Assembly: GCA_018806915.1 (NCBI GenBank)
Contig: JAGKQI010000096.1
Location: 2,108,001 to 2,172,000 of the forward strand
DNA length: 64,000 nt
DNA from: Phytophthora colocasiae
Taxonomy: Eukaryota > Oomycota > Peronosporomycetes > Peronosporales > Peronosporaceae
Direction of reading: 5' to 3'
Part shown: positions 17,162-59,727 of the stretch, one piece after another
Layout: every line of letters starts with the position of its first letter
Numbering within the stretch: position 1 is the stretch's first letter
Position numbers and translations under genes: made by a program
Notes under the pieces: model-generated
Databases searched by the model: none
Seen by the model: only the letters and a program-made list of their open reading frames with translations
What the model was told of the DNA's origin: nothing

Positions 17162-17165
17162 ACCT

Positions 17166-34620: not shown

Positions 34621-34713
34621 TCGAATGGAATCCCCAGGGGTTTACTTGCTAACACCACCTTTATGCTCACGTCCCTTTACTATCCGGCATTATGGTCAAT
34701 TACGGCGATGGTG

Positions 34714-35165
34714 TGTAACGGGGTTACACGTACACGTGGTTGTACCACTTGTAACTCTAACAGTTAGGATAACTGTTAGAGGTTGGAAATGGGCCTCAGA
34801 CCTTGGTGTGCTGTACACACCAAAGGATACATGGGCGAACCACATTACTGGGTGGTTCGTGTGCATTTGTGCATATTATTGGTAGAATTTCTACCAATCA
34901 CTGAGCAGAGTTTCTGCCAACCACACGTTGGCAGACCCTTTAGAAATAGATAACAAACAGTTTTAGGAGGTCCATAATTGGCTTATGCCAAATTCAATAA
35001 CAGTTCTCATTTTACGGTATTTTTGCAGTTTAATTTAGTTATATTTGATTTAATTATACTTATTTAAATAAGTATACTTAAATTAAGTCTATTCTAATTG
35101 CACGCTTCCTCATACACGTAAGCGCACGTGTACGCCACCTAATAGGTCTAAGTAGACCCATTACA
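34714..35165 (+). repeat. E1 LTR (452 bp), copy 1 left
   Basis: Starts TGTAACGGGGTTACACG and ends GACCCATTACA. It is the reverse complement of 40466-40917 with few differences. Inside it are perfect hairpins such as the pair at the positions corresponding to 40851-40875. Confidence 0.93.
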
Positions 35166-35167
35166 CC

Positions 35168-35182
35168 TGGTAGCACTTCGTA
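35168..35182 (+). promoter_or_regulatory. Probable primer-binding site of E1
   Basis: TGGTAGCACTTCGTA lies 2 bp inside the LTR and resembles the TGGTA start complementary to initiator-Met tRNA ends used by many gypsy elements. The match beyond TGGTAGCA is weak. Confidence 0.45.
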
Positions 35183-35214
35183 GTCCGTCCCACGACCGAC
35201 TGCTGTTCGTTCGT

Positions 35215-36807
35215 ATGGAGTCATACGAACGCGGGGTAGAGAACTCCCCAATGGATGAGGGATCCGCTGGGACCCCTCACATGTCCGTGACGCGCACGGA
35301 CTGTGCCCACCTGTCAGATCCAGAGTGGGAAGCTCTCCAAAGACTTTCACAAGTCATTGGAGAGGCAGCGGTAGCGACGATGCTTCGTACGCTATCGCCG
35401 ACAGAGCAACACGGTGTTGCTCTGGGGTACATTGTTAAGGAGCAACGAGATGTTGCTGCTTCGGTGGCTTCCCCTAAGCCACGCGTGGAGTCGTTGAAAC
35501 TCCACGTGAGTACCTACACGGGGAAGGAGGACGAGACCCTCCTTCGGTGGCTTGTCGAACTCGACACAGCCGTTGCGGCTCGACGTATCGTCGATCCGAT
35601 GTCGAAGGTCGCGTTCGCCATGTCATGTCTTGGCGGACGTGCGAGGAGTTGGGCCTATGGGCGCCGACTCTCGGATCCTACGTGCTTCAGCACGTACGAG
35701 GTGTTCAAGGAGGAACTCAATCTTGCGTTTGAGCCTCCGAAGAACGAGTTCAGATCGAGAGCAGAGTTTCTCGATCTGCAACAGGGCAAGGATGATGTTC
35801 ACACCTTTGCCCAGCGTGCTCGATACTTGGTATCGAACATAGTGGCCAACCCGATCGACGAGGCGACCAAGGTCGTCACGTTCATGAAGGGACTAAGAGA
35901 TGGTCCCGTCAAGACGTATCTCTTCCGAGAGTATCCGAATACTCTCGAGGAGGCGATCAGCCTTGCAATGCAAGAGGAGTTTAGCCGGCGTCAAGCTAAA
36001 CTCCATGCGAACGCGCCGAAGCCGGCGCGTCCTGTTGTGAAAACGGGAGGTCCGGAACCTATGGACCTCTCGAGTGCTACGACTGCTGGTCAACAGCAGC
36101 GTAGGAACAGCGCGTTCGATGTTACAAGTGTAGTAACATCGGTCACTATGCACGCGAGTGCACAGCGGGCGGGCGTTCAAAAACGCTGGCGACCAGTAGG
36201 CGCGGGGCGTCCTACTGGTGATGCAGTCTCGCGTGTCGAGCTTGGACACGCGACGATGAGGACTGCTGCCCCCAGCGAGAAGGTTTCTCGCTGTAAGCTG
36301 CAAGATGACAAGCCAAACCTTGTCATCCTGAACGTGATGTCGAAGAGAGCGAACTCTCTTCGTGCCCTAGTGGACTCGGGCGCGTCGAACAACTTTGTTC
36401 GACAGGGAAGTCTTCGAAGGCTTGACTTCGAAGAGGCCGATACGCCTCGCGGCGTGTTGGAGGTGCGGTTGGCAACAGGTGCCACCGTGAGGACTGAGAA
36501 GCGCGTAGTCCGTGTGCGCTTCTCTTACAAACGAAGGACGTTTGTAGAAGATCTTATCGTCTTGGATCTAGACGATAAGTTCGACTTGGTATTAGGCATG
36601 CCGTGGCTTGCACGGCATGACCCGGTGATCAACTGGGAGAAGCGTACACTCGTACGCTTCAACAACACATGCACGACAGAGAGCGATGGCCCTGTCAGTG
36701 CTGCACATGCACCGCCGGTGCATGTGGATCCCCAGTTGAGGCAGCAGCGGCCGCCGCTGCCTCCGATCGCCGCCGGCGACCATCAACGACTCCGGGAGTC
36801 GTTGTGA
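35215..36807 (+). pseudogene. E1 Gag-protease, copy 1 (530 codons, zinc knuckle lost)
   Basis: Opens at ATG 35215. The capsid-like core has the gypsy pattern (LRWLVELDTAV, VAFAMSCLGGRARSWAYG, FRSRAEFLDLQQGKDDVHTFAQRARYLV, VVTFMKGLRDGPVKTYLF) and is followed by PEPMDLS. The cysteine knuckle seen in copy 2 (CYKCSNIGHYAREC, about 58430-58490 minus) is read out of frame here between two compensating indels. The protease has LVDSGASNNFV (active site DSGA), then VLGMPWLARHDPVINW. The DNA of the whole frame consists of consecutive short inverted repeats; seven lie in 36192-36403 alone. Confidence 0.85.
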
Positions 36808-36878
36808 GAAAATGTGTGTCGACTCAGAAATCTGAGCCGAAGGGTCGCGGTCACATGAGTGATGGTCAGGTGAATGTG

Positions 36879-37023
36879 TTCCTGGTGCACTGGGTTGGTT
36901 ACGATGAGCTGACTTGGGTCGACGAAGCTGATCTTAACTGTGGAGCCATATTAAGCGCGTTCCTACGTGATCATGCTAACCGGAATCGGTTTGGCGTGAT
37001 GCAGTCGCACGAAGAAGTGTAGG
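36879..37023 (+). pseudogene. E2 chromodomain tail, separated from its pol by the inversion
   Basis: Reads FLVHWVGYDELTWVDEADLNCGAILSAFLRDH and ends at TAG 37021-37023 after QSHEEV. It is the C-terminal half of the E2 chromodomain; the other half ends at 44368 on the minus strand. E2 copy 2 carries the whole domain at 63060-63250. Confidence 0.85.
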
Positions 37024-37371
37024 AGGGGTCAGGCGAGGTAACAGGGTTGCCCCGCCGTGATCGAAGGAGCTGATGTGGAGGGGAATCCAGATCAGAGCGA
37101 GAGTTTATATTTGTGTATATGCATGTGAGCAGGGAATTTGACGTTGGAAAATAGTGATCCGGGATGTCGAGATGGAGATGAAAGGGGATCACGTTCCCAA
37201 AACGAATGGAGATTACGAGAATCACGAATGGAGATTACGAGAATCACGAATGGGGATTGTGAGAGTTACGAATGGAGGTGGGAGAATGCAGAACGACCCT
37301 AGACGGAGTTCCGAATCCGAACTCGGGGAGAGGCCCCGAGCTTTGCTGCAGGTGATTGAGGTTAGCACGAC
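37024..37371. other. E2 spacer between pol end and antisense gene
   Basis: No gene seen. It holds the 22-bp tandem repeat at 37202-37267. The corresponding stretch in E2 copy 2 is 62707-63059, on the other strand, with diverged repeats. Confidence 0.4.
37202..37267. repeat. 22-bp tandem repeat, three units
   Basis: Unit ACGAATGGAGATTACGAGAATC occurs twice exactly (37202-37223 and 37224-37245) and once with five changes (37246-37267), then fades out. Confidence 0.9.
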
Positions 37372-40124
37372 TTACGGAGAAGCGGCCCCAGCGGGAGGAG
37401 GATTGAACTTGCCGATAAGGCGGGGGATCCTGGTAGCAGGGTGGTTGACCGGGTCTTGCCGATACTGGTTACGCCACGGATCCGCCTCGTCACACTCCTC
37501 CAGAGCCTCGATCAGGTTCGCCGGCTCTGGGACGTTCGCGTTAGGATCCGCCCGGTTGGCACGCCGAGAGACCACGCCGGGATACCAACGAACCGCATCC
37601 ACGGCCGGAATGGGGAGGTGAAGGAAGAACGGATCCAACAGGATGTCGAGATCGAACCACTGGTCGCGCATTATGGCAGGGAAGGAGGCGAGGAATTGGC
37701 GCCAAGCAGACCCAGCCCGACTCCGCCTAGCCTTGCGAGCGACGTAATATCGCTGCAGTTCGAGATCCGCATCTTGCATGGCAGAGGTGATCTCGAGGTT
37801 ATGGGTGGCCTCCCAAAATGCCTGACGGTGCCGTTCCTCCAGGACGCGATAGGTGGCGGCCACGGCCGCGAGGGGTGTTCCCTCCCTCTCGTGCAAATCG
37901 AGGTCGAACGTGAGGGGACCCGGGTTCGCGAAGTCGTTCCACGGCTCCCGAGCCAACAGATCGAGTACGTTCACGCCCGTGATCAACTCGTTGAGATAGC
38001 CGGTGCCGGGGGTCGGCGCGAGTCCAGCCTGCACCCGAGAGGGGAACAGCCAACCCGAAGGGATCAACAACCGTTTGCCCAAGGAGCTGGCAATCAGGCC
38101 CACGATCGAATACTGCCCGATCACCTGCGGATCCCACGGTTCGATGTCCGCGGCCGCGAAGGTACGCTGCCTATCGTACCATGGGATGAAAGAGGCGACC
38201 GGGAACAGAGGTGGTTGGAGTCCGAGGGGCGGAGAACCGCCGAGAGAAGGTGACGGCGGTGACGGGGAACCCGGAGGTGATCCGGGAGACGGTGGGCCTG
38301 ATCCATCCGGAGATGGGCTTGAGCCGTCCGGAGACCCCGATCCACGAGCGCCAGAAGATCTGCCTCTTGGAACCTGACCAGACTCGCGCCGGTGCGTCGA
38401 GATAGATCGTTGGCGGCCCATGTGTAGAATCTCGTCCTCCTCGGAGTCCTCCGCCTCGTTGGAACGTTCCGATTCGGCCTCAGAACTAGTTCCATTGCTG
38501 GGTTCTGGACTCTCGTCCTCTTCGGACGGCGATGAGAATGGGTGCTCGGGATCGTAATCGGAGTCTTCCTCTTCCTCGTCCTGCGAATCACCATCGGCGG
38601 GGGGCGATCCAGGCTGATCCGTCGGCGCCGGGGTCGGATCAGGGACTGGAGTGTCGGTCTCCTCCCCTCCAGCCTGCCCAGAAGCTTGATCCGCCAACAG
38701 ATCCAACGGGCTCGCCGTTGATCCTGCTGAGGTCGGAACCGCCGTTGGCGGGGCGGGCTGGGTTGATCCGGGGGCTTCGGTAGCAGCGGTTCCTGGATCA
38801 CGGGGGGCTGAGGAGCTCCGAGCTGGACGCTTGCGCGAGGAAGGAGGAACGGCGGGGGAAGCGGAGGCGCTTCGAGATCTCTTGGTGGCACGAGCCGCCC
38901 GTCGGTCCGCGATCCACGAGGACAACCGAGCAGAGGAATCCTCGGCGTGATGCAGCTGTTGTTCGGCTTCTACATAATCGGCGTCCAGCTCCTGATGAGC
39001 CTGTCGGAGCTCTGTGTTCTGCTGCTGGAGTTGGTCGAGTTCCTGTGTCGCTGCGTCCCGGGCGGCACGGGCCACGTCAAGGTCCGCGAGAGTTGATAAG
39101 CGATCTTGGGTGGCGTTGTCCAGGTCGACCTGGATCCGATCCCGATCCACCGTGACTCGATCGATATCCTGCATCGCCCGATCCCGGTCGAGGCGGGCCT
39201 GGTCCAGGTCCGCGACGACCTGATCTCGCTCGGCAATTGCGGCACGATGCTGGACGGAGAGCTGGTCCCGGTCGTGCTGGATTATTTCCAGATTTCCCCA
39301 GGCGTCCGCTAGATCTTGCTCCAGACTGGATACGGCGGCGGCATCGGCGGTTGCATCCAAAGGCGGGGCGCGAGAATCCGGTACGGACACGTCCTCCAAG
39401 GCGAGGTGTGCCCGGGCCAGTTCAGCCTGGTGGTCCTCTGCCTCACGTTCCAAGTACGCGACCTCGGCTCGAGCGGCGAGCAACTCCGCTTGTGATCAGC
39501 GGGCATGGCCATGGCCGTTTGTGGACCTTGGGAGGAATCGTTCCTCTGCCAGCGATCAAGGCTACGCTGAGTGAGGGTCAAGTCATGACGCACGGCGGCG
39601 AGCTCCCGTTCGCGATCCTGAAGCTCATCCCGGAGTTCAATCTCCGTCTCCCCTGCTACGCGAAGTTCGGCCAACCGGAAGTCGAGATCCTCGAGCGCAG
39701 AGTCTAACCGCGCCTGGATCCGGGCCATCCGCCGTTCAGATTCCCGCCGTTCAGCGTCGTATTGAGCCCGCTGATCTTGCAAGGCGGCGATCGTGTCCCC
39801 ACCGATACTGTCCCCGTTTCCCGACCGCATACGAGCAATTCCGGCGGTCAACCGCAAGATCTCCTCCGCCTGGTCATCCCGGAAGCGCTCCATATCCTCC
39901 ATGTCGGATCGCAACCGGCGAACGGTGTCATCCAGGTGGTCCCGATCGCGACCCAAGGTCTCGCGCACCCGTTGGCTATGGGCCAACCTCGCTTGCAAAG
40001 TGACCAGCTCAGGGTCTACCCCAGGAGTTGAGAAGCGTGAGGTGGTGGATCGAGCTGACCGGATCGAGTGCTCGCTCGAGGGAGTTCTCGGCGTCAAAGG
40101 GGGCGAGGGAGGCGGATCAGACAT
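37372..40124 (-). pseudogene. E2 antisense gene, copy 1: about 900-residue coiled-coil protein of unknown function
   Basis: Within E2 this gene lies between the end of pol and the 3' LTR and runs opposite to gag-pol. From ATG 40122-40124 it reads MSDPPPSPPLTPRTPSSEHS, then about 170 residues of coiled coil. About 60 bp present in copy 2 are missing near 39490, shifting the frame. The second frame (39483-37372) continues coiled coil with repeated (V/L)DRDR-type heptads, a basic patch RRAARATKRSRSAS, a Pro/Ser then Glu/Asp-rich region, a Gly-Ser-Pro stretch and a 270-residue globular C-terminus (IPWYDRQRTFAAADIEPWDPQVIGQYS...WRNQYRQDP) like no family I know. Copy 2 (59915-62706) keeps the same protein, so it is a regular part of E2. 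Confidence 0.75.
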
Positions 40125-40311
40125 CGCGGAAGGGTGGTGGTGTTTGAACGACTTGTATTCCAGGTGGCAAATGTGGAAATAAGCCCGAAGTGAGCTGCGG
40201 CAGCCCAACTTCCGTGCTGGAGGCGGATGTGGTGAAGCGAACGAGAATTTTTCCCGGAGAGGCGATATCAGCCACGAACCCGAAGAGAGCCGGAACAAGC
40301 GACGGGGGACC

Positions 40312-40465
40312 TGTGATCCCCAGATCTGAGTCGAATCAGACAAAGGTACGATGGGTCCCGCCGGGGAACAGGCAACGGAGACACCAGCGGAAGACAAAGG
40401 TATGATGGGTCCCGCCGGGGGAACAGGCAACGGAGACACCAGCTGAAGTTCAAGTAGAGCGATGT
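40312..40465 (+). repeat. E2 LTR fragment, copy 1
   Basis: TGTGATCCCCAGATC at 40312 follows a purine run (GGGGGACC) and equals, reversed, the end of the E2 LTR at 59727. The LTR is cut off after 154 bp by the E1 LTR at 40466. A 58-bp segment containing GATGGGTCCCGCCGGGG is tandemly repeated inside it (about 40337-40441). Confidence 0.75.
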
Positions 40466-40917
40466 TGTAATGGGTCTACTTAGACCTATTAGGTGGCGTA
40501 CACGTGCGCTTACGTGTATGAGGAAGCGTGCAATTAGAATAGACTTAATTTAAGTATACTTATTTAAATAAGTATAATTAAATCAAATATAACTAAATTA
40601 AACTGCAAAAATACCGTAAAATGAGAACTGTTATTGAATTTGGCATAAGCCAATTATGGACCTCCTAAAACTGTTTGTTATCTATTTCTAAAGGGTCTGC
40701 CAACGTGTGGTTGGCAGAAACTCTGCTCAGTGATTGGTAGAAATTCTACCAATAATATGCACAAATGCACACGAACCACCCAGTAATGTGGTTCGCCCAT
40801 GTATCCTTTGGTGTGTACAGCACACCAAGGTCTGAGGCCCATTTCCAACCTCTAACAGTTATCCTAACTGTTAGAGTTACAAGTGGTACAACCACGTGTA
40901 CGTGTAACCCCGTTACA
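40466..40917 (+). repeat. E1 LTR (452 bp), copy 1 right
   Basis: TGTAATGGGTCTACTTAGACC to CCCCGTTACA. Perfect stems include TCTAACAGTT/AACTGTTAGA (40851-40860 and 40866-40875), ATTGGTAGA/TCTACCAAT (40733-40741 and 40745-40753) and TCTGCCAA/TTGGCAGA (40696-40703 and 40711-40718). The adjacent polypurine tract GGGGGGATGG is on the minus strand at 40918-40927. Confidence 0.93.
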
Positions 40918-41018
40918 CCATCCCCCCGTTAAGATTCGACGTATCGGTCTCGATACGTCAATCAACAGAACTTGACAAGACCGTCAAGTTCCCAAGAGAA
41001 ATCCGAGTTCATTTCGCA

Positions 41019-42562
41019 ATGGACTCGCCAACGCCCACGTCTCCGTCCGCTTCTGCGGACGCGCAAGCCTCTCCTGCTGCCTCTGCAGCAGGAACAACGA
41101 CCTCAGCAGTGCCCACTAGCACTGCTGCTTCCAGCGGTCCGACAGAGAAGCTCTCTGTCACCAAGTACCATGCTCTCCATAAGGAGAAGCATGAGAAGAA
41201 GAATAAGTCTTCTTCTCTAGCAGAGATTAAGAATCCTGCTGTCCCTATCAAAGAACTCTTTGGAGAGGACTACGAAGACATCCTCGACTACGAGGAGGAT
41301 GTCGAGGAGGGGGAGGTTGATGTCAAGGCTCCCGCTCCCGTGTCTTCGTCCGAAGACACGTCAGACCCACCTGTGGGATCTCGACGACCTCGTGATGAGG
41401 CCTCGGACGCTTCAAGCTCGAAGCGTCCGCGCAGTGATGATGAAGCGTCCCCCATGTCGAGGGCGCTTACTGCACCGCGCACTGATCCGCCAGTGCGCAC
41501 GCCATGGATGCCTACTGAGGCGGAGATCCATGACCGGTTCGGTGCTAGTGCACCACCGAACCCGATACTGTTGTACTCATGCAACAGTATCAACGACGAC
41601 GACGTCGCCGCTAAGGTTGTCTTTGAGTCCGAGACTCAAAGACGCGACTACTATATCGGGCTCTTCCACGAGCTCCGATACTATGCAGCGAAGAAGACTT
41701 CGCGCAAGAGCAAAGTGCCAGAGTGGCAGGCACTTTGTCAGTCGTGGAACGCCTTTGTTGATAACTTCAACAAAGACCCGAAGGCATATCGCGATCGCGT
41801 TGCTGCGGCTCGCGATCGCTACTACACTTACACTACACGTGGTAAGTGTGAACGCCTCCATGATCAGTCCATGGAAGCGGGGATCCCATGTGCCGTTCCC
41901 TTTGGCACACCCTGTCCGTGTTGCTCACCCTGGCAACACGCCTCACCGAAAGTGATCTCCTGGGGTACACGGTCGTCCGTGTACCCGATCACATCAAAGA
42001 ACTCCGTGGTCGTATTGTGCCACGCGAAGCTCCGAGTGCTGTGGCTGACCGCAGCACTCCTCGTGCAGGGTTTAACCCTGCAAGTTATGGTGGGCTTTGT
42101 ACGCCCTCACCATTTCCGGAACGTCCTCCATCAGGACGTTCCGCGGCTCCATGTATCTCGATGGGGAGGAAATCCTCTCCAACGAATACGAAAACGAACC
42201 CCTTGAGAGTTCGTTCTCTTATGAGCCACGATCCGCTCCACAATCCAGCGGATCGCTCCACGCGCGTCGCGCAACGGCGGCGGAGGGGTGGGAACACTCC
42301 TCCGCATGGTCAACGCTATGATTATGACGATCGTGCCCTGCACGATCGAGTTGCTGCGCTGGAGCAGACACAGAGCGCTGAGATAGCTGCTCTGAAGCAG
42401 GAGGTTCGTGTCCTCCGTGCTGAGGTCTGCGAGGCAGCTCAGACTGCCTCGAACCTCTCGTCCGGTCTTGGGACGAGAGTGAACCAGTTGATCGACCGTG
42501 TCGACGGTCTCGAGAAGGCCTTCCAGGCCTCTCGCACTCCTCAGTCGGACTACCAACCCTAG
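41019..42562 (+). CDS. E1 antisense gene, copy 1 (opposite strand to E1 pol)
   Basis: From ATG 41019: MDSPTPTSPSAS, a Ser/Thr/Ala-rich head, a Lys-rich patch, an acidic stretch (YEDILDYEEDVEEGEVD), a basic motif SSKRPRSDDE, then a conserved-looking helical domain (ILLYSCNSINDDDVAAKVVFESETQRRDYYIGLFHELRYYAAK...DRYYTYTTRG). A frame change of -1 in the 540 bp after about 41840 is needed to reach LTESDLLGYTVVRVPDHIKELRG; both E1 copies show it. The gene then runs to TAG 42560-42562 through a coiled coil (RVAALEQTQSAEIAALKQEVRVLRAEV). Copy-specific indels near 42151 and 42290 break it here. Its last 490 bp lie opposite the pol chromodomain. No relative is recognised. A nuclear or RNA-binding role is only a guess from its charge. 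Confidence 0.7.
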
Positions 42563-44367
42563 GTAGTCCGTGCTGCACGTACGGCTTCAACCGCCCGACG
42601 TAGAAGGTCGGGTGGAGTCTCATGCTGGACGGTATGTCCAGCCGGTACGCGTTGCCGTGCCGTTAAAGTACTTTGAACGGCCCAATGAATCTTGGAGCAA
42701 GTTTGCTTGCTCCAAAGTCAGACACTGCATGTTTAGGCAGGTTTTGTGTAGCTAACAAAACTAATGAACCCACTTTGAATTCATTTATGTTGCCTCTACC
42801 AACAGTATCAGCGTTCAGCTTCTGTCGATCGACAGAAGCTGCGATAGCATCTTGGACAAACCGTATGACGGCTTGTCTTCGCTGGACAAAAGTCTAGCGC
42901 ACCCGAGCTGAATCCTTTCAGCTTGTCGCCCTTGTCAGCAGCAGGCCCTGCCTGCTCGCTATCATCTTTCATGTCTGTGCCCGGCACAGACATCGCGCGC
43001 TCGTTCCTGCTCGAACGAGACGTCGCACGCGTCACCGCAGCTGATAGTGTGCTGCTATCAGTTGCATTCTGCGGTTGTTCGACGCAACCGTAGATCCTCC
43101 CCACTTAAGGAGTGAAGCTACCCCGCCGAGCATGCTCGGCAATCGTGGATGCCTCATGGCGTTCACGTAGAACGGTGTATGCCCTGTCGAGGCATGCACC
43201 GAGTTGTTGATGGCAAACTCTGCCATCGGCAAGCACTCGCTCCAATGCGGGAACGAGTGAGCGTAGCTCTTCAACGTGTCACCCAGTACACGGTTGACAC
43301 GTTCGGTCTGTCCGTCCGTCTGCGGATGATCCGCAGTCGACATTGATAACTGTGAGCCAAGAAGTGTAAACACTTCTTGCCAGAACCGCGCTGTGAAGCG
43401 TGGATCACGGTCCGACACAATGTCGAGCGGCATGCCATGGTGTTTGAACACCATGTCAACAAACAGTCGCGCAGTCTGCGCGGCTGTAACAGTAGGGACG
43501 GCAGCAAGATGAACCATCTTGCTGAATCGGTCCACAAAGACAACGATGCCCGTCCTCCGCTTGCTGTCAGGCGGAAGACCGAAGACAAAGTCCATGGACA
43601 TGGACTGCCAACACTCCGACGGAGTCAGTGATTGAAGAGGAGCCTGCGAGAACTGCGCAGGCTTCACGCGTTGACAAACCTCGCAAGCACGTACGTACTT
43701 GCGCACCCACTTGTACTGGTGGTGCCAGTAGAAGTCACGCGTGAGAAGAGTGTATGTCTTCTCACGACCCGGATGCCCTGCCGTGGGGCATCGTGATACT
43801 CGAACATGATCCTCAACCGGAGGTCATGATCATTCGGAACGACAATGCGATCCGCATTGTCGTCTACTGCACTGTATAACAGTAGGCCTTCGTGTACACG
43901 ATAGCGGTGTACACGAGCTCGAAGATGAGGGGTTAGCTTCCGACGTGCCACGTCGGAAGGTGCTGCGAGGAACTCCAGCAGCCCCTTCGCGTCTGCATCC
44001 CTTGCATACGCGTTCTTCACGTCGTCAATCAACGTTGACGACGGCACACTTATCCTCACGACGCCAACGCTGTTGGCGTCGACCGTCTCCGCATAGTCAG
44101 GTCGACGCGATAACGCGTCGGCCACTACATTGAGTCTTCCGGGTTTGTACTCCACCCGGAAGTTGTACTCCGCGAAGAAGGACAACCATCTCGCCATACG
44201 TTGCGAGATGTGCGGCGACTTAATCGCCGTACGCAATGATGCGTGGTCTGTATAGACCACGAACGGTCTACTCCCAAGTAGATACCTTCGGAATTTTGCG
44301 AGTGCATACTTCATGGCAAGGAGCTCCTTGTCATGTACAGGGTAGTTACGCTCAGCTGGCTTCAGCT
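42072..44367 (-). pseudogene. E1 pol, copy 1: part of RNase H, integrase and chromodomain (broken)
   Basis: Minus-strand pieces: RNase H from 44367 (AERNYPVHDKELLAMKYALAKF...YTDHASLRTAIKSPHISQRMARWL, ending VVADALSRRPDYAE), the integrase zinc-binding region and core (VCQRVKPAQFSQAPLQ, MDFVFGLPPDSKRRTGIVVFVDRFSKMVHLAAVP, DPRFTARFWQEVF, ADHPQTDGQTERVNRVLGDTLKSY: the D,D,E catalytic set is present), the C-terminal HPTFYVGRLKPYV, and a chromodomain (WIVERIVAHKRTNSQGVRFRIRWRGFPPHRDTW). At least five frameshifts occur. The undamaged frame would end at TAA 42072-42074. RT is absent, deleted at the 44367 junction. Confidence 0.85.
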
Positions 44368-49095: not shown

Positions 49096-49159
49096 TCTCG
49101 ATGCGGTCTCTTCAGATCCCCAACTGGGATATGTAGATCTTCCTCCAACTTTACCGATC

Positions 49160-49650
49160 TTACCTTTTCCCCGTATAATCTCTTGCGACCACTAAGTGGG
49201 ATCCCCACTTCATTAGGTAAGCACATCGATCCCTTCGCAAGATCCATCCGACCCCAGCCGGGATCATGAAATCCATACCCAGGATCGCATCTTGCCCGGA
49301 TAGATCCCCGATCCAAATATCAAAAACGTAGACCAGGTATCCCGCAAGCGTGATCTTGATCCTCGTTCTTCCCTCGGTGGTGTATACATTACCACCGATC
49401 CCAACACACTCCTGTCTCTGACTAGTATCAAAGTGGCACCCAACCTTACGAGCAAAGGTGGTATCCAAGATGGATACCTCGGCGCCAGTGCCAGGAGCAA
49501 GATCGCTCTTTCATGATTGATCTTGCCTGAGATCTTGGCTTGGCGGAACCATTTTCCTGGTGCGTGGTATTTCCAGTACCCTGGATTCTCCTTCCTTGAG
49601 ATCCAAAGCCACTTCCGCACCAGATCGCGAGAACTCATCGACACGGGGAA
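49160..49650 (-). pseudogene. E2 aspartic protease region (frameshifted; active-site Asp apparently Gly)
   Basis: The frame 49468-49160 has TTFARKVGCHF, the retropepsin body and a flap-like GIGGNVYTTEG, then GQDAILGMDFMIPAGV (the second ψ-loop ILGMDF). Just upstream the expected DTGAEVSIL reads GTGAEVSIL (about 49495), and TGA stands closely upstream in that frame. The preceding part continues in another frame from 49644. RT follows in yet another frame at 49095. Confidence 0.65.
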
Positions 49651-49899
49651 GACTCGCGATCTTAGCCGTATACGAATGCAACTTACATGTATTACTGCGC
49701 AGATCCGAATTCTCCCTATCTTGATCTCTCGATTTCTTGTTCACATATGCATAGATGCAGTACTCAGAACGCTCGGCTCGTACCGGTTTCCAAACCGGCG
49801 AGCGTCCTAGTTTAACATCTTTTCCACCTTCTCGGGGAACAATCCGGCATGTCGGGTCGGATCGTACCACTTGCGGATCTGGTTGTAGAATTCTTCCAT

Positions 49900-51500
49900 A
49901 GGGCATTATCCAGCTTCATGGATCTCCCCACAACCACGGCAGGTATACAGACAGCGATCCGTTGGGTGACCCCTCGTCCCGCACTTATCACAGGTTAGAC
50001 GTCTCCAGCAGTCTAGATCCGTATGCGTCCGCGATCCACAGTGTGAACAGCGACCTCGATCGTGGTCCGACGTACCCCCTGCGATCTGCGATTCGGCCTC
50101 GATCTTGCGCGTTCACCTGCGATCACGACTGATCCTGTTGGTGGGGAACGCCCCCAGTACCGATCTGCTTGTCTTCCGACGCAGCAAGATATATCCTCCG
50201 GAGATCGCCTTCAGAATCGGATCCGTCCGATCCGGATATTTCCTCTGATTCCGAGCTCGGATCTTGGGTTTGGATCGCCCGTACCACCGCTCGGGTGGGT
50301 GCTGCCGGGGCACTGGCCGGTGCCTTTTGTCTGTACTTCGATCCGAACGCAGATTTACGCTGTCTGCTTTTCGCCCGTTCCCGGGCACGAAGTACTTCCT
50401 CAAGTTCATCGACGTCATTCAGCCGGAGTAGGGTCAGCCGATCCGCTAACTCCGGATCTCCCAATGTCTCGATATAGTGATCTACATGTTCCCGGCGGGC
50501 CTTAGGGCTCCCATCCTTGATTTTCAGTCTAGCACGTAAAGCCGCCACGTTGAGCCGGTAGAGATAGTCAAGGGGAGTCTCTTCCGATCGCTTGCGAGCG
50601 TGATAGTATTGCCACGCGACCGACATACCCAACCCACAATACTGGGTCTGGAAACTGTCCAACAGATCTGCCCACTTGGTTTTCGTCGTTCGACTGAGCT
50701 GCCTGTACCAGTTCTTTGCCGGTCCCACCATCAGATCTGCAAATGTGAGGCATTTCTCTTCTTCCGTAGCCTGATCGCGCTGAAATGCTGACTTGACTTT
50801 ACTGATCCAGGCCCGAGCGCGATCTTCGTCCAGATCTTTACCCGCAAAATCTTTCAGATCCGAGATCGCTGAGATCCGGACCCGCTGGATCATCGACGAT
50901 CCTCCTTGCCCGATCGCCGCGGATGCGATCGTTGCTCGGCTCGACATCTGTCCACCGGAACTTGGTACGCCCAGATCGTCCGGATCGTATTCCCATGCAT
51001 CCGGATCCGAGGCCGTAACGGACTCCATTTCAACATCCAACTCCCCTTTGATCGGCGATCGGGGTGTCGCGAGATTCCGTTCTTTTAAGAAACGATCCAT
51101 CGCCATTTGAAAGTAGTCGTCCAACTTGTTGCTCGATCCAGTGGAATTAGTCGTCGGCGCGGTCTTGTCTGTCCGGATCTGGCGATTTTCTTGCTGATCA
51201 GGTGTCTTAGCCCCCAGTTTCCGTGCCCACCGTTCGTGTATCTTGTTTCTTCATACACGATTTCAGGAATTTGGCACCGGAGGGGCCCAGCGACATGCGT
51301 TGCAGCCTTCTCGGGCTGTCGGAATCTGGTTCCGAGGTTGCGGACGCGTAGCAGGACGATCCAGTCTGATAGCCTGGATCGGGCGTCAGTGGGCGTTCGC
51401 CGACCAAGATCTTGAGAGAGTTGAATAGATCATGGGTCGCAGATTGAATCGCTTCCAGTTCCAGGTCAAATAGAGAGTTTGGGTCGAATTCTCCAGCCAC
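49900..51500 (-). pseudogene. E2 Gag with two zinc knuckles (frames broken)
   Basis: From ATG near 51500: GEFDPNSLFDLELEAIQSATHDLFNSLK. A second frame from 51124 (MDDYFQMAMDRFLKERNL) has the capsid-like core DLKDFAGKDLDEDRARAWISKVKSAF, LTFADLMVGPAKNWYRQLS, WADLLDSFQTQYCG, TPLDYLYRLNVAALRA and RLTLLRLNDVDELEEVLRARE. The next frame carries CSHCGSRTHTDLDC and CDKCGTRGHPTDRC (both CX2CX4HX4C), then CRGCGEIHEAG. At least two frame changes separate these parts. Confidence 0.8.
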
Positions 51501-51593
51501 TAAACCAGCTTCTGGAGCAGATCAAGTAGAATCTTCACCGCGTTCAGGCGGTCCGAGCTAGTCCGGGGCTTCGACACCGGGCCGGTGAGGTTA

Positions 51594-52056
51594 TGTAATG
51601 GGTCTACCTAGACCTATTAGGTGGCGTACACGTGCGCTTACGTGTATGAGGAAGCGTGCAATTAGAATAGACTTAATTTAAGTATACTTATTTAAATAAG
51701 TATAATTAAATCAAATATAACTAAATTAAACTGCAAAAATACCGTAAAATGAGAACTGTTATTGAATTTGGCATAAGCCAATTATGGACCTCCTAAAACT
51801 GTTTGTTATCTATTTCTAAAGGGTCTGCCAACGTGTGGTTGGCAGAAACTCTGCTCAGTGATTGGTAGAAATCCGTTACTTTCTACCAATAATATGCATT
51901 AAAATGCACACGAACCACCCAATAATGTGGTTCGCCCATGTATCCTTTGGTGTGTACAGCACACCAAGGTCTGAGGCCCATTTCCAACCTCTAACAGTTA
52001 TCCTAACTGTTAGAGTTACAAGTGGTACAACCACGTGTACGTGTAACCCCGTTACA
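51594..52056 (+). repeat. E1 LTR (463 bp), copy 2
   Basis: As 40466-40917 but 11 bp longer. The extra bases lie in hairpin loops: the stem ATTGGTAGA/TCTACCAAT is unchanged (51861-51869 and 51882-51890), while its loop grew from 3 to 12 bases. A neighbouring loop between TGCA repeats also changed. Confidence 0.93.
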
Positions 52057-52157
52057 CCATCCCCCCGTTAAGATTCGACGTATCGGTCTCGATACGTCAA
52101 TCAACAGAACTTGACAAGACCGTCAAATTCCCAAGAGAAATCCGAGTTCATTTCGCA

Positions 52158-53740
52158 ATGGACTCGCCAACGCCCACGTCTCCGTCCGCTTCTGCGGACG
52201 CGCAAGCCTCTCCTGCTGCCTCTGCAGCAGGAACAACGACCTCAGCAGTGCCCACTAGCACTGCTGCTTCCAGCGGTTCGACAGAGAAGCTCTCTGCCAC
52301 CAAGTACCATGCTCTCCATAAGGAGAAGCATGAGAAAAAGAAGAAGTCTTCTTCTCTAGCAGAGATTAAGAATCCTGCTGTCCCTCTTAAAGAACTCTTT
52401 GGAGAGGACTACGAAGACATCCTCGACTACGAGGAGGATGTCGAGGAGGGGGAGGTTGATGTCAAGGCTCCCGCTCCCGTGTCTTCGTCCGAAGACACGT
52501 CAGACCCACCTGTGGGATCTCGACGACCTCGTGATGAGGCCTCGGACGCTTCAAGCTCGAAGCGTCCGCGCAGTGATGATGAAGCGTCCCCCATGTCGAG
52601 GGCGCTTACTGCACCGCGCACTGATCCGCCAGTGCGCACGCCATGGATGCCTACTGAGGCGGAGATCCATGACCGGTTCGGTGCTAGTGCACCACCGAAC
52701 CCGATACTGTTGTACTCATGCAACAGTATCAACGACGACGACGTCGCCGCTAAGGTTGTCTTTGAGTCCGAGACTCAAAGACGCGACTACTATATCGGGC
52801 TCTTCCACGAGCTCCGATACTATGCAGCGAAGAAGACTTCGCGCAAGAGCAAAGTGCCAGAGTGGCAGGCACTTTGTCAGTCGTGGAACGCCTTTGTTGA
52901 TAACTTCAACAAAGACCCGAAGGCATATCGCGATCGCGTTGCTGCGGCTCGCGATCGCTACTACACTTACACTACACGTGGTAAGTGTGAACGCCTCCAT
53001 GATCAGTCCATGGAAGCGGGGATCCCATGTGCCGTTCCCTTTGGCACACCCTGTCCGTGTTGCTCACCCTGGCAACACGCCTCACCGAAAGTGATCTCCT
53101 GGGGTACACGGTCGTCCGTGTACCCGATCACATCAAGGAACTCCGTGGTCGTATTGTGCCACGCGAAGCTCCGAGTGCTGTGGCTGACCGCAGCACTCCT
53201 CGTGCAGGGTTTAACCCTGCAAGTTATGGTGGGCTTCGTACGCCCTCACCATTTCCGGAACGTCCTCCATCAGGACGTTCCGCGGCTCCTATGTATCTCG
53301 ATAGGGAGGAAATCCTCTCCAACGAATACGAAAACGAACCCCTTGAGAGTTCGTTCTCTTATGAGCCACGATCCGCTCCACAATCCAGCGGATCGCTCCA
53401 CGCGCGTCGCGCAACGGCGGCGGAGGGGTGGAACACTCCTCCGCATGGTCAACGCTATGACCATGACGATCGTGCCCTGCACGATCGAGTTGCTGCGCTG
53501 GAGCAGACACAGAGCGCTGAGATAGCTGCTCTGAAGCAGGAGGTTCGTGTCCTCCGTGCTGAGGTCTGCGAGGCAGCTCAGACTGCCTCGAACCTCTCGT
53601 CCGGTCTTGGGACGAGTGAACCAGTTGATCGACCGTGTCGACGGTCTCGAGAAGGCCTTCCAGGCCTCTCGCACTCCTCAGTCGGACTACCAACCCTAGG
53701 TAGTCCGTGCTGCACGTACGGCTTCAACCGCCCGACGTAG
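52158..53740 (+). CDS. E1 antisense gene, copy 2
   Basis: Same gene as at 41019 with more than 95% identity by eye. Here the middle is less damaged: the second frame reads on through APMYLDREEILSNEYENEPLESSFSYEPRSAPQSSGSLHARRATAAEG into the coiled coil. A 2-bp loss (near 53615) then shifts the frame, so the stop falls at 53738-53740 instead of 53697-53699. It shares the frame change downstream of about 52980 with copy 1. A perfect-looking donor, G|GTAAGTG at 52979, lies just before the change, but no acceptor giving the right phase was found. Confidence 0.7.
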
Positions 53741-56700
53741 AAGGTCGGGTGGAGTCTCATGCTGGACGGTATGTCCAGCCGGTACGCGTTGCCGTGCCGT
53801 TAAAGTACTTTGAACGGCCCAATGAATCTTGGAGCAAGTTTGCTTGCTCCAAAGTCAGACACTGCATGTTTAGGCAGGTTTTGTGTAGCTAACAAAACTA
53901 ATGAACCCACTTTGAATTCATTTATGTTGCCTCTACCAACAGTATCAGCGTTCAGCTTCTGTCGATCGACAGAAGCTGCGATAGCATCTTGGACAAACCG
54001 TATGACGGCTTGTCTTCGCTGGACAAAGTCTAGCGCACCCGAGATGAATCCTTTCAGCTTGTCGCCCTTGTCAGCAGCAGGCCCTGCCTGCTCGCTATCA
54101 TCTCTCATGTCTGTGCCCGGCACAGACATCGCGCGCTCGTTCCTGCTCGAACGAGACGTCGCACGCGTCACCGCAGCTGATAGTGTGCTGCTATCAGTTG
54201 CATTCTGCGGTTGTTCGGACGCAACCGTAGATCCTCCCCCACTTAAGGAGGGAGCTACCCCGCCGAGCATGCTCGGCAATCGTGGATGCCTCATGGCGTT
54301 CACGTAGAACGGTGTATGCCCTGTCGAGGCATGCACCGAGTTGTTGATGGCAAACTCTGCCATCGGCAAGCACTCGCTCCAATGCGGGAACGAGTGAGCG
54401 TAGCTCTTCAACGTGTCACCCAATACACGGTTGACACGTTCGGTCTGTCCGTCCGTCTGCGGATGATCCGCAGTCGACATTGATAATCTGTGAACCAAGA
54501 AGTGTAAACACTTCTTGCCAGAACCGCGCTGTGAAGCGTGGATCACGGTCCGACACAATGTCGAGCGGCATGCCATGGTGTTTGAACACCATGTCAACAA
54601 ACAGTCGCGCAGTCTGCGCGGCTGTAACAGTAGCCGGGACGGCAGCAAGATGAACCATCTTGCTGAATCTGTCCACAAAGACAACGATGCCCGTCCTCCG
54701 CTTGCTGTCAGGCGGAAGACCGAAGACAAAGTCCATGGACATGGACTGCCAACACTCCGACGGAGTCGGAAGTGATTGAAGAGGAGCCTGCGAGAACTGC
54801 GCAGGCTTCACGCGTTGACAAACCTCGCAAGCACGTACGTACTTGCGCACCCACTTGTACTGGTGGTGCCAGTAGAAGTCACGCGTGAGAAGAGTGTACG
54901 TCTTCTCACGACCCGGATGCCCTGCCGTGGGGGCATCGTGATACTCGAACATGATCCTCAACCGGAGGTCATGATCATTCGGAACGACAATGCGATCCGC
55001 ATTGTCGTCTACTGCACTGTACAACAGTAGGCCTTCGTGTACACGATAGCGGTGTACACGAGCTCGAAGATGAGGGGTTAGCTTCCGACGTGCCACGTCG
55101 GAAGGTGCTGCGAGGAACTCCAGCAGCCCCTTCGCGTCTGCATCCCTTGCATACGCGTTCTTCACGTCGTCAATCAACGTTGACGACGGCACATATCCTC
55201 ACGACGCCAGCAGCTGTTGGCGTCGACCGTCTCCGCATAGTCAGGTCGACGCGATAACGCGTCGGCCACTACATTGAGTCTTCCGGGTTTGTACTCCACC
55301 CGGAAGTTGTACTCCGCGAAGAAGGACAACCATCTCGCCATACGTTGCGAGATGTGCGGCGACTTAATCGCCGTACGCAATGATGCGTGGTCTGTATAGA
55401 CCACGAACGGTCTACTCCCAAGTAGATACACTCGGAACTTTGCGAGTGCATACTTCATGGCAAGGAGCTCCTTGTCATGTACGGGATAATTACGCTCAGC
55501 TGGCTTCAGCTGACGCGATTGATAATAGACTACACGATCACGCCCTTCGTGATCGTGTTGCATCAATGCACATCCGATTGCAAAGTCGGATGCATCGCAC
55601 ACTACGTGGAATGGACGATCTTGGTCCGCCACGGCCAAGATCGGCGCTTCAGTCAAGCCCTGCTTGACTGCACCGAATGCCTCCTCGCACTCGGTCGTCC
55701 AAATCCACTCAGCTTCTTTCTTAAGAAGCTGTGACAACGGGCGAATCTTGCCCGCATAGTTGTCCACGTACTTGCACAAGTACGTGGCAAGCCCAAGGAA
55801 CTGCCTCAGTTCCTTCACATTGGATGGCGTGGGCCATTCATTGATCACTCTGACCTTCTCTGGGTCAGGGCGCACGCCGTCTTTCCCCACGAGACACCCC
55901 AGCACGGGTATCTCGCTCGCCCCGAAGATACACTTCTTCAGGTTCGCATAGAGCTTATGTTTCCTCATAAGCTCTAGTAGCTTCCAGAGATGCACCTTGT
56001 GCATCTCAATGTCCGTCTTCCCGTTCACAGCCCGGCTGTGGACGAACACGTCGTCGAAGTAGCTCGGTGCGAAGTCGCGCACCGAGCGCAATAGATGTGT
56101 CACGCATCTATTGAACGTCGCAGGGGCGTTCTTAAGCCCCTGTGGCATGACGAGCCACTCCCAAAGCATACCGCTTGGAGTGCTTACCGCTGTGAGAGGG
56201 ATGTCCCTCTCACGCATGAGGATTTGATAGAATCCATCACGCAGATCTAGAGCACTGAAGATAGTGCTCAAGGCCATCGAATCGATGATAACATCTTTTC
56301 GCGGTATCGGCGTCTGCGCCGGTATCGTCGCATCGTTCAGCTTGTTATACGCATGAACGATGCACCAGCCGCCCTGTGGTTTCTTCACACAGAACGTTGG
56401 AGCACTGTGCGGGGACGTTGACTCCCGCACTTGACCTGCAAGACGACGACTTTCAAAGAAGTCGTCGATCGCTTGCACTTGTTCACGCGGCAGTGGTCAC
56501 TGCCGTAACACAGTACTTCGTGCCCGGCACGAGATCAATCTCGTGCTGTACGCCCTTATCCTTCGGAAGCTCCGAAGGAATCTCGTCCGGGAGTACATCC
56601 TTGTACTCCCGCAGAACTTCGTAGTAGGGACTCGACCTCAACGAGTCCCAACTCTGCTCCTCGAAGCGCTGCTTCTTAGTCTTCGCACTGAGGGAGTCAT

Positions 56701-57073
56701 CACCCTCAGTGATCCCATCGACGACGAGCTGCTTCAGCTCTTCGGCTTCGCGATCCACTCTCTCGATATCCGAGAGAATGCAAATTTGTTCGATGCGTCC
56801 ATCGTACAAGTCTCGTGCGAAGCGCTTCCAACTCATCGTTGGAAGTGCGGTCAACGCCGACGCACTCGTCGGCGGATTCTCCAACCGCATCCTCTGGTAC
56901 TGTAACCCAGTACCAGTACGTGTCAAGACGTTCAACGTCTCGACACTCGGTGTCTGCACTGCAGATACACCCGTCTCAGTCCCGGACTGAGACTCGCGCA
57001 GCTCCCTGAGCTTGCGCCGCGAAGGTCTACCGTGGAGCCCGGCTCCAGGTGCTCCACGTCCAAGGCATCGCAC
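53211..57073 (-). pseudogene. E1 pol, copy 2: RT, RNase H, integrase, chromodomain (frameshifted)
   Basis: Frames: 57073-56483 (RT lead-in, ...VLPDEIPSELPKDKGVQHEIDLVPGTKYCVT), 56478-55174 (RT with SPHSAPTFCVKKP, MPQGLKNAPATFNRC and the catalytic YFDDVFV, then RNase H with VCDASDFAIGCALMQ and YTDHASLRTAI), 55192-54416 (integrase zinc and core) and 54729-53800 (integrase end), then HPTFYVGRLKPYV and the chromodomain (WIVERIVAHKRTNSQGVRFRIRWRGFPPYRDT). In the chromodomain the conserved Trp codon is TAG, a nonsense change that is silent (Pro) in the antisense gene. Lesions differ from those of copy 1. The ancestral frame ends at TAA 53211-53213. Confidence 0.87.
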
Positions 57074-57260
57074 CTTGACGGGACGTTATCGCAATCGTCA
57101 GCGGATTCCTTCCGCTGACTCGCACTATCAAGCCCGGCTTGAGTGCCGCTCATCGCGTGCAGCGCTGCTGCACGTGAGCACGCAGGTTGTTCGGGTGCTG
57201 GGCGTTTGCAACCGCCAGCACCTCCTGCCGCGCAGTCGGGTCCCTGAACTGCTGCGCCAC

Positions 57261-57572
57261 CATCCGCTCCCGGAGCGGATGAAGCAACCGCATCGTCGAC
57301 TCCCGGAGTCGACGTGCTCTCGCTAGCTTCCTGCGCTAGCGAGTGTTCGCTTGTACACATATCATCCGTTCCCAGAGCGGATGTACGATCGCTAGTTCCC
57401 GGAACTAGCAGCGACTATTCGCCTATACACGTCTCATCAGCTCCCAGAGCTGATGACCGATCGCCAGTTCCTGGAACTAGCAGCGATGTGCCAGTGGCGT
57501 CAGCTCCCAGAGCTGACGCACGCCTTTCGGTTCCCCGAATTTTATTTTTATCGTCAACTCTCAGAGTTGACG
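57261..57572. repeat. Array of nine hairpins with a common CCC[AG]G loop
   Basis: Stems (5' arm, loop, 3' arm): 57261-57281, 57294-57314, 57319-57343, 57363-57383, 57391-57409, 57435-57455, 57463-57481, 57498-57518 and 57552-57572. Six have exactly the plan seven bases, T, CCC[AG]G (once CTCAG), A, seven complementary bases. Stem sequences differ, and CATCAGCT/AGCTGATG against CGTCAGCT/AGCTGACG is a compensated pair. The fourth has a wobble and the seventh one mismatch. The array lies in the linker between protease and RT. Confidence 0.85.
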
Positions 57573-57730
57573 CGACGTCGTCGGCGCGACCCTTGGGGCT
57601 TGAAGTACCTCCAAGGATACCGGTATTTTACCTTCTCTCAGGTGAATCGCATTCACCTGACCATCACTCATGTGACAAACATCATTCAGATGTTTATGCG
57701 TCAGGTGATTCACATTCACCTAACCATCAC

Positions 57731-58509
57731 TCATGTGACCGCGACCCTTGGGCTATGATTTCTGATTCGACATACATTTTCTCCCAACGACTCGAGAGTC
57801 GCTGGCGGTCGCCGGCGGCGATCGGAGGCAGCGGCGGACGCTGCTGCCTCAACTGGGGAATCACATGCACCGCCCGGTGCATGTGCAGCACTGACAGGGC
57901 CATCGCTCTCTGTCGCGCATGTGTTGTTGAAGCGTACGAGTGTACGCTTCTCCCAGTTGATCACCGGGTCATGGCGTGCAAGCCACGGCATGCCTAATAC
58001 CAAGTCGAACTTATCGTCTAGATTTAAGACGATAAGGTCTTCCTCAAACGTCCTTCGTTTGTAAGAGAAGCGCACACGGACTACGCGCTTCTCAGTCCTC
58101 ACGGTGGCACCTGTTGCCAACCGCACCTCCAACACGCTGCGAGGCGTGTCGGCTTCTTCGAAGTCAAACCTTCGAAGACTTCCCTGTCGAACAAAGTTGT
58201 TCGACGCGCCCGAGTCCACTAGGGCACGAAGAGAGTTCACTCTCTTCGACATCACGTTCAGGATGACAAGGTTTGGCTTGTCATCTTGCAGCTTACAGCG
58301 AGAAACCTTCTCGCTGGGGGCAGCAGTCCTCAACGTCGCGTGTCCAAGCTCGACACGCGAGACTGCATCACCAGTAGGACGCCCCGCGCCTACTGGTCCT
58401 TGGCGTTTTTTGAACGCCCGCCCGCTGTGCACTCGCGTGCATAGTGACCGATGTTACTACACTTGTAACATCGAACCTTGCTGTTCCTACGCTGCTGTTG
58501 ACCAGCAGT
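57731..58509 (-). pseudogene. E1 protease and truncated Gag end, copy 2
   Basis: From 58509 leftwards: Gag C-terminus with the zinc knuckle CYKCSNIGHYAREC (CX2CX4HX4C), a short linker, then LVDSGASNNFVRQGSLRRF, TGATVRTEKRVVRVRFSYKRRTF, DDKFDLVLGMPWLARHDPVINW. The rest of gag and the 5' LTR are displaced beyond the E2 insertion, outside the window. Confidence 0.85.
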
Positions 58510-59727
58510 TGTGGTGGAGCGGATCTGCCAAAATCTCGTTAGGGCAGGTCCCGATCACCACTTGCGCCCAGACACCGACTAACGGAGGGGGTCCCCCGAT
58601 GATCCGTGATCTAGCTGTGTGTAGTTTCACCTTGTGTACCCGTCGGTAGGCGGGTTACGCTCTTCCAGGTGACTTCTGAAGGTGTCTTGTAGGTCGGAAG
58701 AAAGTCTTGGGTGACGCAGGGGTTTGAGGCGGCGTGGAAGTTCTTCACTCCACCTCGGGGTACTTGATCCCCGTCGTAGGCGAGTTCTCGAGCCCTGATC
58801 CGGGTACCTGGTTCTTGATCCAGGTCTTCCAATAATCCAATGTTTGGGATTCAGTCCCTTCCTTTCTGTTGTTTTCCGCTTCCGATAGCGGGGGTCTTGA
58901 TAGGGCGAGATTCGACTGGATCCTTAGGCTAAACAACCAATTCCTTCCGATCCGATGTATGCACTTAAAGGATAGTTCACTAGATAGGGCAAAGCTGGCC
59001 AATATATTATCCAGACTTAACCGCTATACTAGGTCACGTATCCTTACCTCCTTGACGCCTGTAGGGCCAATGTAGTTCCCGGTTCCAGGCGCAGCGAAGA
59101 CACTTGAGTGGTTCAGGGCAAATTCGATTCTGTTTATGGTTATTCCTATGCCTACTAATCCCATCCTGATTTACTATCCTACGATCACATGACACTGGCT
59201 ACAGAGCTGATCCCTAGCTTGGTTCCCCTAACCCTGATCTTGAGCCGATTCCGCACTTAACCGAAGCTTGATCTCGCACTTAACCGAGGCTTGATCGCTG
59301 CCTGATCCCGCTTGGTAATCCTTCAAAGAATCCGGATCAGGCCACCAGAAGAGTCTGCGCCACGCCTGGGGCTGACCTTGATCCGGAGCTGATCTCGTAC
59401 TCATACCGGAGAGGATCATTGCGTGATCCTGCGTGATCCCGCTTCGTCGCCGCCCGGGGAAGTAGGATCGTGCTGATAGAGGCTTCGGGGCGCCAGGGTA
59501 AGCCGATCGTGCTCACTTGGGACCCCGTCATCGTTGATCGCGCGAGAACATCCTTGATTTCCCCATTCTTCCTCCGGCAGGATTCGGATCACCCACGAAC
59601 ACCGCGACAGGATTCGGATCACCCACGAACACCGCTCCACTTGCTCCTCCGCCGGTGTCTCCGTTGCCTGTTCCCCGGCGGGAACCCTCGTACCTTCGTC
59701 TGATTCGACCCAGATCTGGGGATCACA
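58510..59727 (-). repeat. E2 LTR (about 1218 bp)
   Basis: Left end TGTGGTGGAGCGG is fixed by the junction with E1 gag. The right end GGATCACA is chosen because it gives TGTG...CACA termini and is followed by GGTCCCCCC, the complement of a polypurine tract, also present in copy 1 (40304-40312). No second LTR of this copy is in the window to prove the right border. Inside, 17-18-bp units around GATTCGGATCACCCACGAAC are tandemly doubled (about 59580-59635). Confidence 0.7.

Follow-up and report, generated by a model that had tools for sequence, protein, structure and literature searches.

Three described systems come closest to E1, a Ty3/gypsy long terminal repeat (LTR) retrotransposon that lies in pieces within a 64,000-nucleotide stretch of the genome of the oomycete Phytophthora colocasiae (GenBank assembly GCA_018806915.1, contig JAGKQI010000096.1, positions 2,108,001 to 2,172,000, forward strand; the whole stretch is hereafter the window, numbered from its first base) and that carries a chain of short perfect hairpins along its length. 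Genome-scale ordered RNA structure (GORS), as set out in one survey (PMC7642675), resembles E1 in its hundreds of local stem-loops across coding sequence at positions poorly conserved between relatives, in single mutations that are evenly spread while repeated changes avoid paired sites, and in having no loop motif. GORS is a feature of RNA viruses, whereas E1 is an LTR retrotransposon with perfect Watson-Crick stems, a step at a stem length of 9 bp and no preference for G-U pairs. The coding palindromes of nematomorph mitochondria, as described in PMC6649704, are likewise many perfect inverted repeats in conserved protein-coding sequence, with both arms coding and with gains and losses between species. 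Their arms are 15-142 bp long, without an excess of imperfect repeats, and they lie in mitochondrial DNA, while E1 is nuclear and has stems of about 9 bp; in the full-length E1 copy, L039, the longest stem is 13 bp, below the 15 bp of the shortest nematomorph arms, and 9-bp stems with one mismatch are common (73 versus about seven expected).

Elements of the Ty3/gypsy chromovirus type share with E1 a gag with a zinc knuckle, protease, reverse transcriptase (RT), RNase H, H2C2 integrase, SH3 domain and chromodomain. E1 is set apart from them by an antisense gene and by the hairpin chain, which is absent from the gypsy elements E2, also present in the window, and L007/L008. Our literature search, which had subscription papers and most preprints outside its reach, found no described transposable element of this kind.

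Results

The Hairpin Chain and Its Limits

Perfect inverted repeats with stems of at least 8 bp and loops of 2-15 nt are crowded into three pieces of E1: 31 in 34713-36878 (14.3 per kb), 53 in 40466-44367 (13.6 per kb) and 98 in 51594-58509 (14.2 per kb). Elsewhere the window is close to the chance level, with five such stems in 1-34712 (0.14 per kb), two in 36879-40465, six in 44368-51593 and two in 58510-64000, and the LTR element at 14924-21897 contains none. Dinucleotide shuffles of the three E1 pieces gave 0.5, 0.7 and 1.6 stems, an expectation of about 0.2 per kb against the approximately 14 observed; for stems of at least 9 bp the counts were 23, 39 and 74 versus 0.1, 0.1 and 0.4. The same holds when codons are shuffled: the 1753-amino acid (aa) frame of L039 has 76 stems of at least 8 bp, while 50 synonymous-codon shuffles gave a mean of 2.2 and a maximum of eight. 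Mirror repeats and direct repeats of the same geometry number three and nine, respectively, in 8.3 kb. The hairpin chain of E1 is far beyond chance.

All 117 stems of at least 8 bp detected at L039 fall within the element and none in about 1.2 kb of its flanks, and in this copy the chain ends at the element boundaries. Counting stems of at least 7 bp, 31% of the element is stem and 41% is covered by whole hairpins. Each of the 30 RT loci of the E1 family that we fetched (30/30), which lie on many contigs, has 12.6-15.5 stems of at least 8 bp per kb. The trait is a property of the whole E1 family and is weaker in sister families.

A preliminary description of this DNA, made from its letters, had proposed that E1 is built of back-to-back inverted repeats at roughly 20-30 per kb when shorter stems are included, against about 0.2 per kb in random DNA (stem at least 8, loop up to 15), and that host genes, E2 and the 14.9-kb element lack them. 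These proposals agree with our counts. All 16 stem pairs that it listed are perfect where it placed them (13 given as letters, three as coordinates and length), and at a minimum stem of 6 bp the density in the E1 pieces is 22.6-25.9 per kb. It had drawn the limits of the trait too narrowly in confining it to E1, since sister families (about 67-76% RT identity) share it at lower strength.

Anatomy of E1

Judged from its domains, E1 is a chromodomain-bearing Ty3/gypsy LTR retrotransposon with an antisense gene, and its 8.3 kb comprise LTRs, gag, pol and that gene. L039 (contig C6) has the full anatomy. Its LTRs of 449 bp are 99.8% identical and TGGGA flanks it on both sides (a target-site duplication; one copy checked), and Pfam matches on its frames run in the Ty3/gypsy order of gag with zinc knuckle, protease, RT, RNase H, H2C2 integrase, SH3 and chromodomain. 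The chromodomain at the end of pol (PF00385, 43.6 bits versus a cut-off of 25.1) is that of a chromovirus. The pol protein matches a P. citrophthora protein at 95% identity (69% query coverage) and proteins of P. cinnamomi, P. ramorum and P. rubi at 83-85%.

The antisense frame of L039 encodes 540 aa. Its protein has 523 homologues; the 120 listed have identities of 42-88%, and every one that is named to species is from Phytophthora. Encoded at L039:1217-2836 (plus) and, in the window, at 40908-42206 and 52047-53525 (both plus), it is a member of a large group of hypothetical proteins in this genus and has no Pfam match above the cut-off. Hairpins are as dense in the antisense gene as elsewhere in E1.

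E1 is multi-copy in the 92.5-Mb genome, with at least 96 matches in a protein search, which is a lower bound. Several copies have frames of at least 1700 aa, which suggests that E1 was recently active.

The E1 features of the window are as follows.

34713-36878, plus: E1 piece 1, LTR and part of gag-protease, 31 hairpins; interrupted at 36878 by E2 sequence
34713-35165, plus: E1 LTR with hairpins (e.g., 34755-34781, 12-bp stem); 100% identity to 40918-40466 and 97% to 52057-51594; the first 12 bases are possibly outside the LTR proper
35152-36804, plus: open frame of gag and protease, 551 aa stop to stop; Pfam Retrotrans_gag, Ty3_capsid, RVP_2
36192-36403, plus: example run of six hairpins in gag, 9-bp stems
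40466-44367, minus: E1 piece 2, LTR, antisense gene and 3' part of pol, 53 hairpins; 98.5% identity to 51594-55511
40908-42206, plus: antisense open frame of piece 2, 432 aa stop to stop; homologous to the L039 region with the 523 protein homologues
51594-58509, minus: E1 piece 3, LTR, antisense gene, pol and part of gag, 98 hairpins; 97.6% identity to L039 over 6940 columns
52047-53525, plus: antisense open frame of piece 3, 492 aa stop to stop
53800-57085, minus: pol of piece 3 in four broken frames (integrase and SH3 part; H2C2 and rve; RT and RNase H; upstream part)
57338-57486, minus: tandem repeat of 72 bp, 2.1 copies, with its own hairpins, between protease and RT; L039 counterpart 6517-6665

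The preliminary description had taken 34714-58509 as a single E1 with the trait in LTR, gag, pol and antisense gene. All four parts do carry it, but the interval consists of three E1 pieces in both orientations, split by E2. Throughout 34713-64000 the pieces are rearranged: E1 piece 1 has the opposite orientation to pieces 2 and 3, and pieces of E2 recur in both directions. Each 72-bp unit of the tandem array carries hairpins, and several compensated changes fall within the array.

Shape of the Hairpins

Stems are perfect and typically at least 9 bp long, loops are mostly 0-8 nt, and the span is 21-27 nt in 72 of the 93 hairpins with stems of at least 9 bp. The excess of stems in L039 over a Markov expectation (loops 0-15) is 34 at 7 bp, 26 at 8, 48 at 9, 28 at 10, 14 at 11 and three beyond. 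There is thus a pile-up at 9 bp, and extension past it is about random: a core of 9 bp that extends at either end with a probability of one in four would give 52, 26, 10 and 3 where 48, 28, 14 and 3 were observed. Nine sister copies have a shoulder at the same length (excess of 49, 39, 16 and 7 at 8 to 11 bp). Among non-redundant stems the GC content is 0.665 at 8 bp (n=22) versus 0.556 at 9 bp (n=40), while among stems of at least 9 bp length is unrelated to GC (p=0.30), so that the relation arises through the 8-bp class. Because the 8-bp stems are GC-rich, a minimum stability describes the hairpins better than a minimum length.

Hairpins are spaced nearly at random (coefficient of variation of the gaps, 0.87). 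A 75-nt gap occurs at element positions 417-491, just inside the 5' LTR, where the primer binding site is expected. No common loop motif was found outside the tandem array (near element positions 2400-2650), and a loop motif of the packaging type was accordingly set aside as a candidate.

Folding Energy and Strand Symmetry

The preliminary description had called for folding energies on both strands, and these are extreme: the minimum folding energy difference (MFED) relative to shuffles is 39.2% for the sense and 43.6% for the antisense strand (12 folding windows per strand, six shuffles per window, with a second set of 33), in the manner of GORS. For comparison, the survey cited above (PMC7642675) gives 15% for SARS-CoV-2 and states a maximum of 23.4%, with shuffles similar but not identical to ours. 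Predicted minimum-energy folds contain 92% of the stem pairs. The antisense MFED exceeded the sense MFED in 31 of the 33 folding windows; as native energies are equal on both strands, this surplus is probably due to the shuffled baseline of the G-rich strand and we conclude nothing from it.

Pairing in the stems is strictly Watson-Crick. Among the covered one-mismatch stems, 56 are fixed in the family (14 with G-U, 24 with A-C and 18 with a transversion); losses shared by several copies comprise 22, 23 and 17, respectively, and gains fell 11 times in 5' arms and 16 times in 3' arms. Hence G-U is preferred over A-C neither in fixed one-mismatch stems nor in variants. Selection on sense RNA alone would be expected to favour G-U, and since no such preference is seen, the data do not single out sense RNA; strict pairing points instead to both strands, to single-stranded DNA or to the copying of one arm from the other. 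The excess of A-C over G-U is weak (one-sided p=0.03), but A-C is G-U on the complementary strand, and it hints that the minus strand (antisense RNA or the first cDNA strand) matters most.

Variation among E1 Copies

Do E1 copies break the stems freely? We aligned 50 further segments to L039 (loci L010-L037, L040, L041 and L051-L067 and the three window pieces; L009 and L038 were excluded because they repeat loci in the set, and nine of the segments lengthen elements that others already represent), used sites with at least eight copies and checked either allele for stem membership, so that the test is symmetric between alleles. Stem-breaking variants accounted for 248/999 singletons, 36/211 low-frequency variants and 27/180 shared variants (Fisher, shared versus single, p=0.010), a fall from 25% to 15% where stems are 27.8% of sites. 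At third codon positions the counts were 71/303, 12/106 and 5/66 (8%; p=0.005). Stem-making variants, conversely, rose from 26/999 singletons through 12/211 low-frequency to 15/180 shared variants (2.6% to 8.3%; p=0.002). Shared variants in gag-pol therefore avoid paired sites, as in GORS, and copies do not break the stems at will. This suggests that the hairpins are actively kept.

Private changes, on the other hand, strike stems nearly in proportion (0.110 per site in stems versus 0.140 outside), so that upkeep of the stems seems to operate during replication of the element and not in the chromosome. Two other forms of the test were set aside: using the stems of a reference copy, shared variants fell on 8 of 1098 stem sites versus 79 of 2806 outside, a four-fold depletion that reference-choice bias overstates, and a union-of-stems test (p=0.13) is biased in the opposite direction. 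Compensated double changes within the family, which had been suggested as a check, are few: one hairpin, and four places of which most lie in the tandem array or close to it.

Sister Families and Other Retroelements

A search with a pattern avoiding E1 codons gave 146 places, some of them E1 subfamilies. The eleven that were fetched comprised two E1 copies (L040 and L041) and nine sisters, with about 67-76% identity to E1 in the main RT pieces and 0.9-3.8 stems of at least 8 bp per kb. Eight candidate intermediates (L051-L058) were all E1 copies. Sense MFED in the eight folded sisters (L047 was omitted) was 26% in L042, 13% in L043 and 6-12% in six others, versus about 3% in E2 and host DNA. 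Other retroelements (L001-L008) had an MFED of -3.6 to 3.8% and no chain, and the chain is absent from the gypsy elements with 23-35% RT identity to E1, namely E2 and L007/L008. In L042 (G000:C4:130700-135700) the MFED is 24-26% on both strands with only 2.8 stems of at least 8 bp per kb, and its structure must therefore rest on shorter or imperfect stems.

A few hairpins are co-located in E1 and sisters with different sequence (e.g., element positions 1492, 5840 and 6048). Pairs altered on both sides between E1 and sisters are complementary in 260 of 613 cases, where 210 are expected.

Imprint in Proteins of Other Species

The comparison across species was made on amino acids, with 16 of the 120 listed pol relatives. 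In stretches that hold a real 9-bp E1 stem and in which the relative has differing amino acids, we asked whether the stem could still be encoded; controls were stems feasible but not real in E1. It was still encodable in 67% of cases in P0009 (P. citrophthora), 51% and 48% in P0002 and P0004 (P. cinnamomi), 62%, 57% and 50% in P0003, P0007 and P0014 (P. ramorum), 35% in P0005 (P. rubi), 47% in P0006 (P. palmivora) and 51% in P0011 (P. megakarya), versus 17-31% of controls. These nine of the 16 relatives, all named Phytophthora, exceed controls with p from 1e-6 to 0.03, values that are optimistic because the stretches overlap and the relatives share ancestry. P0008 was not significant (33% versus 23%, p=0.13), and of the other six, five were without effect and P0016 had 24% versus 11%. 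Residues encoded wholly within stems are also more conserved than those outside hairpins in P0002 (171/189 versus 484/633) and P0003 (180/199 versus 410/518); in seven more distant relatives they are not. From these protein comparisons, most E1 hairpins seem to date back to the origin of the Phytophthora E1 group and to have arisen after it separated from the sister families.

An imprint test that uses protein alone gave z>0 in 113 and z>2 in 51 of the 120 listed pol relatives, which share ancestry and are not independent; 15 controls averaged 0.07, with one (L006) at 3.0. Neither the E1 frame nor an alignment of ten relatives picked up a relative in viral contigs.

Other Features of the Window

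E2, another gypsy element, occupies 36879-40465, 44368-51593 and 58510-64000. Downstream of pol it apparently has an antisense frame (37375-39495 minus; 60478-62127 plus) that is linked to pol sequence at 63203/63204; we infer the layout from this one junction. Its antisense protein has no similarity to that of E1. The LTR element at 14924-21897 has LTRs of 925 bp that are 99.9% identical and a gag-like frame at 18750-20150 (minus). Host-type genes are a putative ABC transporter (10422-14903, plus) and a putative glycosyltransferase with a DXD-motif sugar-binding region (27368-28471, minus).

Discussion

What forces could have produced such a chain and kept it? The reading that we favour, and to which we give about an even chance, is selection for strand-symmetric hairpins of a minimum strength. 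Under it, selection would act during the active life cycle, in which hairpins would fold the single strands of the element locally; both strands (sense RNA together with antisense RNA or first-strand cDNA), or single-stranded DNA, would have to fold, and the hairpins could block annealing of the strands to each other or to 25-nt small RNAs. Selection for minimum strength explains the step at 9 bp, why 8-bp stems are rich in GC and why stem-breaking variants are lost with few compensating changes. A shield from silencing is perhaps the likeliest use of the hairpins, by analogy. We prefer it because Phytophthora 25-nt small RNAs, according to one study (PMC3804510), arise mainly from transposable elements, and because the hairpins mostly span 21-27 nt. 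A comparable role against silencing was proposed for GORS in persistent RNA viruses. In the viruses, too, what such structure does is described as uncharacterized (PMC7642675).

The main rival is a mutational drive. At near-palindromes the reverse transcriptase of the element would often jump to the strand that it is making and copy one arm as the complement of the other; each retrotransposition would then create and mend hairpins, which would not have to serve any purpose. The preliminary description had raised this, and part of the evidence suits it well: the stems are perfect and blind to the type of mismatch and to the arm, dead copies barely protect them (24.8% of singletons lie in stems), which places upkeep in replication, and the same mechanism was proposed for the nematomorph palindromes (PMC6649704). 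Arm-to-arm copying should, however, remove the one-mismatch stems that are so common and so often fixed in the family, and it sits poorly with the pile-up at 9 bp, past which stems do not grow beyond the core plus chance in LTRs and genes alike, with the scarcity of compensated double changes within the family (relative to sisters there is an excess, given above), and with E2 and other retroelements that share the basic replication yet lack hairpins. We regard it as somewhat unlikely. Selection on the structure of sense genomic RNA alone, for packaging, translation control or stability, would account for the strong predicted sense folding and accords with the zinc knuckle in gag and with the well-folded core reported for yeast Ty3 RNA (PMC11381356). 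It is quite improbable given stems without G-U preference, equal native energies on the two strands, loops without a common motif outside the tandem array and hairpins equally dense in the antisense gene. The earlier suggestion of selection for an RNA of chained hairpins thus survives in modified form, with strict Watson-Crick pairing and without sense RNA being singled out. Practically no weight can be given to chance, base composition, codon usage or an assembly artefact, as the dinucleotide and codon shuffles refute the former, the copies on many contigs refute the last, and sister families and proteins of other species bear a trace of the trait.

Several observations weigh against selection for minimum-strength hairpins or against their use as a shield. 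Outside gag-pol, where few copies are available, shared losses are not depleted (13/58 versus 35/191 singletons). The lack of G-U preference speaks against selection on sense RNA, and E2 is apparently ambisense yet without hairpins, so that an antisense gene alone, which we had considered as a sufficient cause, is rejected as such. Among mapped hairpin cases only 5 of 336 are perfect in sisters, which implies high turnover. Relatives of the antisense protein have little imprint (z>0 in 71 and z>2 in 13 of the 120 listed), the relatives of pol are not independent samples, and the silencing shield rests on analogy. The full claim, that E1 is the first transposable element on record to have its whole sequence, genes for proteins included, under selection across host species for perfect hairpins chained along both strands at a fixed minimum strength, and that these armour its single-stranded RNA and cDNA against silencing by 25-nt small RNAs of the host, we hold to be unlikely as it stands.

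With nearly a third of its bases in perfect stems and with amino acids that bear the imprint, E1 represents an extreme nucleotide-level constraint on coding sequence, and its predicted folding exceeds the values for vertebrate RNA viruses in one survey (PMC7642675). The protein-only imprint test can be used to seek the trait in collections of predicted proteins. Young E1 copies, graded sister families and hairpin-free gypsy elements occur together in one genome, and so provide a natural experiment on what large-scale structure is for: escape from silencing, packaging or a by-product of reverse transcription.

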